The translations under genes were made by a program, and so were the position numbers. A stretch of DNA of 44,250 bases, taken from contig JAAYWB010000042.1 in NCBI GenBank assembly GCA_012516855.1, positions 1 through 44,250 on the forward strand, written 5' to 3'. This DNA is from Candidatus Cloacimonadota bacterium (lineage in GTDB: Bacteria; Cloacimonadota; Cloacimonadia; Cloacimonadales; Cloacimonadaceae). Positions 38,471 to 40,361 of this stretch are shown piece by piece. The notes below the pieces were generated by a model, which worked only from the letters and a program-made list of their open reading frames with translations, searched no databases and was not told the DNA's origin. The stretch's first letter is position 1, and each line of letters opens with the position of its first letter.

Positions 38471-38671
38471 TCTTTGCTTTGGATTTGCCCTTTGCCCCTT
38501 CCCACTCGCCTCTTTTTCGCCTCCCGTTTAGTTCCCGTTTGACAGGCAGGAACTCAACGGGAAATGAATAGGATGTGAATGGGATACGGCAAAGGCTCCA
38601 TATATAGTGGGTAACAAAACGGGGTATTCGTCACAGAAAATCGCGGAAAATGATAATGGATCATGGATAAA

Positions 38672-38970
38672 CTGGATTCCGGGTCAGGCCCGGAATGACG
38701 TAGGTGTGGGGTCGGGTGGTGGTTTATGGGCTATTCCGCCCGGTCTGGATTCCGGGGCAAGCCCGGAATGACGTGGGTGTGGGGTTGGGTGGTGGTTTAT
38801 AGACTATTCTGCTGGTATGGATTCCGGGTCAAGCCCGGAATGACGCGTAAAGGCATTGCCCGGAGAACCGAATATACGTCATCCCGGACGTCACCGAGCC
38901 CGCGAGGTGACATTGATCCGGGATCCATGAATGGATGTACACTGGATTCCGGGTCAAGCTCAGAATGACG
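38672..38970 (+). repeat. Palindromic tandem repeats, about 73-bp period
   Basis: The unit contains TGGATTCCGGGTCAAGCC, then CGGAATGACG: an inner palindrome (TTCCGGG/CCCGGAA) that can fold as a hairpin. Copies begin at 38672, 38745, 38816 and 38942; the first three are joined by a GGTGTGGGG..GGGTGGTGGTTTAT linker. A diverged copy (ATCCCGGACGTCACC...) lies at 38881-38930. Similar palindromes are common as dispersed intergenic repeats in many bacteria. An 80-codon frame across the array is a by-product. The bases 38480-38671 hold no other feature. Confidence 0.8.
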
Positions 38971-38992
38971 TGGGTGTGGGACAAGGCCATGA

Positions 38993-39346
38993 ATTCACAA
39001 ATCCCAAAGTAGGGAGAAAGTAGGGAGATGAGCCTGAAACCCTTTACCAGTATATGTTTCAGGGCTATAGATTCACAAATACGGCCCCTCTTATATCCAG
39101 ACTGATGCAACAAGAGATAGCATATGCAAGATAGTAGCTATCTCTATGAAATATAGATATATCATATATATAATATATTTAATACTTTTATATAATATTA
39201 TATTATATATTCCATTTGCATCCCCCCTGGGGGAGTTCTATGTAATAGAGGGCTGTGAATTGTGAATCTATAGGCTCCAAACCCTGATGCAGAGTACGTT
39301 ATAAGCCATTCTCCCTACTTTCTCCCTACTGGATTGATTTGTGAAT
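38993..39346. repeat. 354-bp foldback element with 88-bp inverted arms
   Basis: Left arm 38993-39080 and right arm 39259-39346 are inverted copies of equal length. Three blocks match: ATTCACAAAT at the outer end, AGTAGGGAGAAAGTAGGGAG in the middle, CTATAGATTCACAA at the inner end. The about 35 bases between the last two blocks differ between arms. Each arm therefore carries ATTCACAA at both ends. The 178-base centre is extremely AT-rich (long ATATA/TTATAT runs at 39150-39215) and has CCCCCCTGGGGG near 39225. No ORF fits inside. It may be a non-autonomous mobile element (MITE-like), a fragment of a replicon or a protein-binding site cluster. Confidence 0.65.
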
Positions 39347-39352
39347 TTATAC

Positions 39353-39377
39353 AAAAAGGGAGGAGTTGCACCCTCCC
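39353..39377 (-). terminator. Rho-independent terminator for the minus-strand lipoprotein gene
   Basis: Read on the minus strand, GGGAGG and CCTCCC (bases 39377-39372 and 39363-39358) pair around an 8-base loop and are followed by TTTTTG. It lies about 70 bases past the stop at 39447. A second 9-bp hairpin (TAAGGCTCT 39423-39431, AGAGCCTTA 39441-39449) overlaps the stop codon but lacks a T-run. Confidence 0.65.
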
Positions 39378-39446
39378 CTGGACAGGTTATTTTTGGGCCC
39401 ATGATTCCATGATAAGGTCATTTAAGGCTCTCTTTCAAATAGAGCC

Positions 39447-40361
39447 TTAGAAAAAAAGTTTCACCCCCAAAGGCCGGTGGTCGGAAATCTGGTTGAAGTA
39501 ATTTTGCCAGCTTCCCATGAATTCATCCACGCGGATCACGCGGCATACGCTGTTGGCATTGTCGAGGGCGTCGAAAAGTTCGTTGGTGACCAGGATGTGG
39601 TCGATGTGGGAAACGTAGGGAGGGTAGGAAACATTGTTATAAGTAGGGGCCAGGGCGATGTGCATGTCCGCGAAGCGGTATTCCTCCGGTTTGTCCAGAA
39701 AGACCCGGAACACGTTGTATTCCTCCGGTTCGGCGATCTGGTCGTTCATATCGCCCACCACGATCACATTGTCATTGGGGAGGTTTTCCACGATATACTG
39801 GTCCAGCATCTGGCAGGCCAGGCGGCGGCGGCATTCCTCGTCCCAAGGGTCGGATTCGTCGATATAGTTGTCGCCATAAGCCTTCAGGTGGTTGTTTATC
39901 ACTTTGAAGTTCCGGCCCTGAAAGTCGAAATCCAGGACGTAGGGCGCACGGGGAAATGGATTGGTTTGGCCCTCGTAGATGGTATAAACGTCGTTTACCC
40001 GGACCACCCGGGTATCGTAAAGATAAGCCAGGCGGTAGCTGCTGGTGGCGTTATAGATATGGGCGGAGTAGTTCGGTATCAGGTTGGCGAGTTCGTGAAA
40101 AGCGGAGCTGTCCATGATTTCCTGGAAGGCGATTATATCAGCCCGCATCTGGGGAATGATCTGGGCTATGGTTTGGATGCTGGCCTGGTCGAGGGGGAAG
40201 GTGCGGAGGTTCCAAGTGACAATTTCCAGAGACTGGTCGGAGCCGAAACTCAGGATGCTCTCGTTATCGCCGGGCACCAACGGGGTGTTGGTCCCGCAAC
40301 TGAAAAGGGCTATCGCGGCCAGCAGGGGCAGCAGGGTGTATCCAAGTGATTTTTTCATCAT
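39447..40361 (-). CDS. Lipoprotein of the endonuclease/exonuclease/phosphatase family
   Basis: A 304-residue exported protein. The N-terminus is a lipoprotein signal (LGYTLLPLLAAIALFSCG) with lipobox LFSC, so Cys21 should be lipid-anchored. The EEP fold follows: LEIVTWNLRTF, IIAFQEIMD with the metal Glu, NNHLKAYG, VVGDMNDQ with Asp/Asn, HIDHILVT and the catalytic SDHRPLGV at the C-terminus. All key residues are kept, so it should be an active metal-dependent phosphodiesterase: a secreted nuclease or a phospholipid/nucleotide phosphatase. Location outside the cytoplasm suggests scavenging of DNA or phosphate. It is transcribed divergently from the C25 peptidase gene. Confidence 0.9.
   Translation of the reverse strand: MMKKSLGYTLLPLLAAIALFSCGTNTPLVPGDNESILSFGSDQSLEIVTWNLRTFPLDQASIQTIAQIIPQMRADIIAFQEIMDSSAFHELANLIPNYSAHIYNATSSYRLAYLYDTRVVRVNDVYTIYEGQTNPFPRAPYVLDFDFQGRNFKVINNHLKAYGDNYIDESDPWDEECRRRLACQMLDQYIVENLPNDNVIVVGDMNDQIAEPEEYNVFRVFLDKPEEYRFADMHIALAPTYNNVSYPPYVSHIDHILVTNELFDALDNANSVCRVIRVDEFMGSWQNYFNQISDHRPLGVKLFF

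Follow-up and report, generated by a model that had tools for sequence, protein, structure and literature searches.

In SaPI and SCCmec elements, as described in PMC7581432, the helicase gene (encoding Rep or Cch2) is followed by a repeat-bearing origin, the iterons of which lie just downstream of the gene and are recognised by the C-terminal DNA-binding domain of the helicase, and a separate operon primase is present. The Sulfolobus plasmid pRN1 combines an AEP primase, an SF3 helicase and a C-terminal winged helix, and its origin is a stem-loop of ≈ 100 nt, lacking iterons, just downstream of that gene; between plasmids of this type the stem-loop structure is reported as conserved and the sequence is not (PMC4234260). 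In the PLEs, satellites of Vibrio cholerae, the DNA-binding part of the initiator RepA and the origin co-vary and are exchanged together between elements, and an origin-directed nuclease has been proposed as the driver (PMC8263062); the binding domain is located N-terminally, and RepA is, in the relevant part of PMC7145576, not predicted to have helicase activity. In herpes simplex oriS an A/T spacer is flanked by initiator boxes in inverted orientation (PMC12543377). Finally, Kazlauskas et al. 2018 described AEP-primase mobile replicons with AEP, PriCT, a DUF3987 ATPase and a C-terminal winged helix, the latter being proposed to recognise the origin, and the portion of their paper used here mentions no origin sequence for the DUF3987 replicons (PMC5862659). 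The definition of PICMI satellites likewise makes use of a model for a DUF3987 primase (PMC10803314).

The window, i.e. the whole stretch of 44,250 nucleotides under analysis, contains an orphan foldback of a type that probably acts in cis as the replication origin of integrated mobile elements, a family seen in one genus of the Cloacimonadota. By analogy with the systems above, the best reading is that of an iteron-type origin whose A/T core would serve for unwinding. The 3′ end of a helicase gene adjoins many foldbacks of this family, relatives of the window foldback being found just 3′ of the gene, as in the SaPI and SCCmec arrangement; in contrast to the latter, the helicase is a DUF3987 protein, both arms join in a single long inverted foldback, and the host is a member of the Cloacimonadota. 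A further difference from SaPI and PICI islands is that a partial scan of the element proteins recognised neither an integrase nor a recombinase. With pRN1 the elements share the order of primase, helicase and predicted winged helix as well as the conservation of structure over sequence, but the helicase matches DUF3987 and is predicted to be MCM-like, and the foldback (≈ 360 bp) has tandem words, hence iterons, and an A/T core. The exchange of initiator tail and origin recalls the PLEs, yet here the putative binding domain sits at the C-terminus of a helicase, and many modules coexist within one genome. The likeness to oriS is an architectural analogy only, the initiator being unrelated. The features of the AEP-primase mobile replicons, namely an AEP with PriCT-2 and a P-loop helicase (PF13148) with a predicted C-terminal winged helix, are all present, and the foldback supplies a candidate for their origin.

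The features read in the window are compiled in Table 1. The original prediction of inverted arm blocks around a nearly pure A/T core, with an 8-bp stem in the variable part of the left arm, is borne out in each of these elements, including the 15-nt, 21-nt and inner pairs; the arms had been drawn a few bases too short, as pairing extends over the full span given in the table. Its argument that conserved blocks with divergent sequence in between point to protein binding holds up as well. The shared motif in both arms, the hairpin, the helicase 3′ end and the element end had been overlooked. Folded as a single DNA strand, the region 38980-39360 reaches -76.1 kcal/mol, as compared to -33.0 kcal/mol for shuffled sequences (sd 3.9, n = 100; z = -11.1). 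An Rfam scan of the window at gathering thresholds returned no match, and an RNA family was rejected on this basis. By its A/T richness the core is a candidate unwinding region beside the iterons.

Table 1. Coordinates of the foldback and its surroundings in the window.
Feature	Position	Strand	Remark
Element end GTGGGTAACAA	38607..38617	+	adjoins ATATATA 38600-38606; sister-species homology stops at 38595
Foldback, iteron-bearing inverted arms flanking A/T core (candidate replication origin)	38989..39350	.	pairing, fold, family alignments
Outer word, left arm	38989..39003	+	pairs with 39336-39350, 15 nt, 93%
Tandem private word AGTAGGGAGAA AGTAGGGAGA, left arm	39008..39028	+	pairs with 39310-39330, 21 nt, 100%
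8-bp stem, left arm	CCTGAAAC 39033-39040 / GTTTCAGG 39056-39063		
Inner word CTATAGATTCACAA, left arm	39065..39078	+	within 36-nt pair, 72% identity
Family-shared motif CCTCTTATAT inside inner word, left arm	39087..39096	+	strict-pattern scan of arms
A/T core, nearly pure A/T (candidate DNA unwinding element)	39145..39223	.	
Family-shared motif ATGTAATAGAGGGC, right arm	39240..39253	-	strict-pattern scan of arms
Inner word TTGTGAATCTATAG, right arm	39260..39273	-	partner of CTATAGATTCACAA 39065-39078
Tandem private word, right arm	39310..39330	-	perfect partner of 39008-39028
Outer word, right arm	39336..39350	-	partner of 38989-39003
Terminator-like hairpin, 3′ end of helicase gene	39358..39378	-	read from sequence; layout also in L043, L044
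Last 12 sense codons and stop of DUF3987 helicase gene (LNDLIMESWAQK, stop)	39387..39425	-	homologous to G000:C63

Complete versions of the linked gene encode DUF3987 proteins (PF13148), and a BT4734-like primase (PF08800, E 1e-8, with PF08707 PriCT-2, E 3e-9) is encoded upstream of the helicase or fused to it. No solved relatives of the helicase were found by sequence up to E 1. Its AlphaFold model (mean pLDDT 84.8) has a winged helix at the C-terminus (residues 404-461), and the best PDB matches in Foldseek are MCM AAA+ chains (E 2e-6), followed by RuvB and ORC, suggestive of an MCM-like AAA+ fold. An A/T core lies no further than 600 nt from the stop codon in 36 of the 49 helicase 3′ ends examined, inverted arms scoring at least 14.5 accompany it in 31 of these 36, and in 27 of 38 arm sets a 7-mer is repeated more often than in any of 40 shuffles, such that a repeat-bearing site directly follows the gene of the putative initiator helicase. 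Among the 13 ends that show no core within this distance, five have less than 300 nt of sequence remaining, and in L134 the core lies further downstream, behind inserted repeats. The helicase matches, counted by hand, comprise 52 entries, 18 of full length, 26 limited to the 3′ end (some of these cut by contig ends) and eight internal or partial, one of which reaches the 5′ part. That the 3′-end fragments represent a small standalone winged-helix gene was considered and dropped: their 5′ breakpoints vary, and in L062 and L066 an element end is fused to the fragment. Outside the genus, nine loci with related helicases were fetched; seven have sequence after the longest ORF, and none of these seven shows arms clearly above shuffles, one (L219) having an A/T-rich stretch.

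The original prediction had been staked on further copies and on arm conservation in relatives, and its refuting condition did not come true. An exact 20-mer of the window recurs once in its own genome (G000), near the start of contig C63, and the architecture is found in many genomes of the genus. As C63 begins in the right arm and contig C52 finishes in the left arm, this second copy probably falls into a gap of the assembly; identity to the window copy is 98.4% over 127 nt and, in the helicase-end region of C63, which encodes ...LNDLIMESWVQK, 93.9% over 148 nt. A third, diverged foldback resides on contig C77. This contig also shares with the window (38489-38593; L069:8201-8305, 78% identical) an intergenic hairpin repeat of the GTTCCCG...CGGGAAC type that occurs after genes. 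Full-length relatives in G010 and G002 of the same genus are 66-67% identical, and other genomes contain core matches. Most of the 15 fetched stretches that were inspected have two inverted arms with words varying from copy to copy, and the arms exceed every one of 20 shuffles in 30 of 31 scorable A/T cores, a figure that describes the family and not a genome-wide rate because the loci were picked by core or helicase similarity. A scan of named genomes gave seven loci, six of them in Cloacimonadota. Judged from these alignments, the architecture is conserved across the family, and the arm words themselves are not. A search of the open-licence PMC literature retrieved no paper naming this element family in Cloacimonadota.

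Each element has its own words, repeated in both arms and differing from those of other elements; the private word at 39008-39028 recurs in G010:C2 (L042), and by manual reading G002 alone has at least eight distinct arm words. Within the inner word many arms have a looser motif in common, CAA(A) - spacer - CTCT/CTCC; its strict version occurs in 28 of 42 arms, as compared to 1.5 on average and 6 at most in shuffles. The winged-helix tail and the arm words segregate together. Up to about nt 1200, most 60-column windows of the G002 helicase genes on C36, C10 and C20 show 90-100% identity, the exceptions being some windows at 82-88% and the first window of both C20 pairs at 75%; within the winged helix, at about nt 1200-1260, identity drops abruptly to 72-78%, and from there it is mostly 23-63% through the foldback. 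As C20 keeps no A/T core downstream, its comparison extends over the tail and the sequence behind it. On G002 C5 the 5′ context is different, yet tail and foldback match those of C36 at 90-100%. One locus is orthologous between G002 (C2) and G010 (C23), both copies being truncated at the same junction; its flanks are mostly 68-98% identical, and the tail and foldback 22-58%. For 27 elements, retained from 36 after nine had been dropped, word similarity correlates with winged-helix similarity (Spearman 0.38 for the tail and 0.43 for the helices), a value that none of 2000 permutations reaches in either case. The partial correlation is 0.19 for the tail and rises to 0.27 for the winged-helix helices. 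The correlation does not single out the tail, and the words track relatedness in general, which contributes. As far as sequence comparison can tell, tail and foldback are best read as a swappable cassette that would keep an origin paired with its own initiator.

A complete element runs in the order primase gene (BT4734-like AEP with PriCT-2), DUF3987 AAA+ helicase gene, terminator, foldback and element end. The C-terminal winged helix of the helicase may bind the words repeated in both arms, two facing helicase assemblies, one on each arm, would melt the A/T core in between, and the element's own primase could then begin synthesis on the exposed strands, presumably during an extrachromosomal replicating stage. 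No extrachromosomal form was found in searches of plasmid and phage records: none of 72,556 plasmid records matches the helicase, and only three phage records do, at 21-26% identity. An origin of known plasmid or phage type was rejected on these grounds. Viral contigs gave no match for gene family X (see below), the primase or the 20-mer and only one remote helicase relative, a DUF3987 protein of 25% identity on a 36-kb viral contig from IMG/VR (L217).

The window copy itself retains the foldback, the 12 last sense codons and stop of the helicase gene, and one element end only. In the sister species G002 (contig C18) both flanking genes are adjacent at the orthologous site and the foldback is missing; homology to the window breaks off at 38595 and resumes at 39447, and this is not a clean empty site because other repeats sit between the flanking genes. 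Between foldback and element end (38630-38985) a dispersed repeat (GGATTCCGGG...CCCGGAATGACG) is found several times; in L134, other dispersed repeats interrupt a foldback. The copy thus looks like an orphan 3′ remnant of a larger element, without a helicase of its own, and need not be active.

The ends of the elements are short GTGGGTAACAA or GAGGATGAGAA termini beside TATATA, situated outside the foldback; any target-site duplication there merges into the TATA-rich flanks. Terminal inverted repeats are seen at both ends of four elements: GTGGGTAACAA on both sides of the derivatives L062 and L066 and of the complete element of ≈ 17 kb in G002:C20, and GAGGATGAGAA at both ends of the fused-gene element of ≈ 9.4 kb in G006:C8. 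Among the part of the element ORFs that was scanned, no integrase, recombinase or transposase was recognised. A gene family X (≈ 150 aa; L142:5923-6372, L149:5651-6097 and others) occurs in each of the 13 genus genomes; many of its copies start near the TATATA palindrome that also marks element ends, and several complete elements sit between two outward-facing X genes. Gene X has no Pfam family above cut-off, no convincing PHROG and no PDB fold match at E 0.001, and was rejected as a recombinase on this basis. Defence-like cargo, found at L142:9656-14229, L131:5261-5923, L227, L061:12898-15171 and L067:858-4802, comprises a type ISP restriction system, a Gp49/HTH/SecB-like trio, and ZorB-like, KAP/PifA-like ATPase and STAND PD-Lambda-4-like genes.

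Among the options raised in the original prediction, a replication-type site fits best. Non-autonomous mobile DNA fits too, because the window copy is a 3′ remnant of a larger element and is absent at the orthologous site of the sister species. It could accordingly be asked whether the foldback is the end or recombination site of a mobile element, a MITE-like cis site for integration, and not an origin. Helicase fragments of the 3′ end only often adjoin foldbacks, as though mobilised derivatives had retained the foldback, the two G000 copies are near identical, and L062 and L066 are bounded by the same terminus on both sides; on the other hand, the termini map outside the foldback, and no recombinase or transposase came to light in the scanned genes, which makes this explanation unlikely.

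A regulatory role, in which the winged helix at the foldback would control expression or copy number by iteron handcuffing without starting replication, draws on the position directly after the operon and on the control roles that iterons often have. It seems improbable, however, since an A/T core of ≈ 80 bp between two symmetric arms exceeds the needs of a repressor site, and control sites would normally be expected at promoters, whereas the foldback follows a terminator. Least of all does the evidence favour a host-owned chromosome-structuring or partition site with dispersed copies, and the chromosome-structuring option of the original prediction found no support. Many copies per genome, several of them at orthologous loci in different species, would agree with such a site, but the words vary between copies within one genome, unlike in a site read by the host, presence varies between sister species, and the copies track a mobile helicase, so that we consider it highly improbable.

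Against an origin speak the lack of an extrachromosomal form among the plasmid and phage records, the helicase 3′ ends without a nearby core, the related helicases outside the genus, which show no clear foldback, and the correlation, which does not single out the tail. An origin remains the preferred reading, and it gives a candidate function to a class of sequences resembling junk palindromes and a candidate origin to DUF3987/BT4734 replicons. The matched and mismatched pairs of helicase tail and origin form a natural set that offers a route to the recognition code of the winged helix, and they raise the question of what drives origin swapping. Tentatively, and with more doubt than confidence, a wider picture may be sketched: the Cloacimonadota might harbour replicons of an undescribed family, defence-bearing and apparently integrase-less (≈ 9-17 kb in cases with both ends seen), that dock at TATATA palindromes beside gene family X; each would possess a symmetric origin of its own, to be read by the winged-helix tail of the element's MCM-like helicase; the cassette of tail and origin would be exchanged as a unit, giving the origin words that coexist in G002, and orphan origins could persist as cis-acting parasites or decoys. 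In G000, a fused primase-helicase, accompanied by another foldback word, is represented by two pieces at contig ends, on C27 (L146:7367-8820) and C78 (L148:281-550), possibly one element split by assembly.
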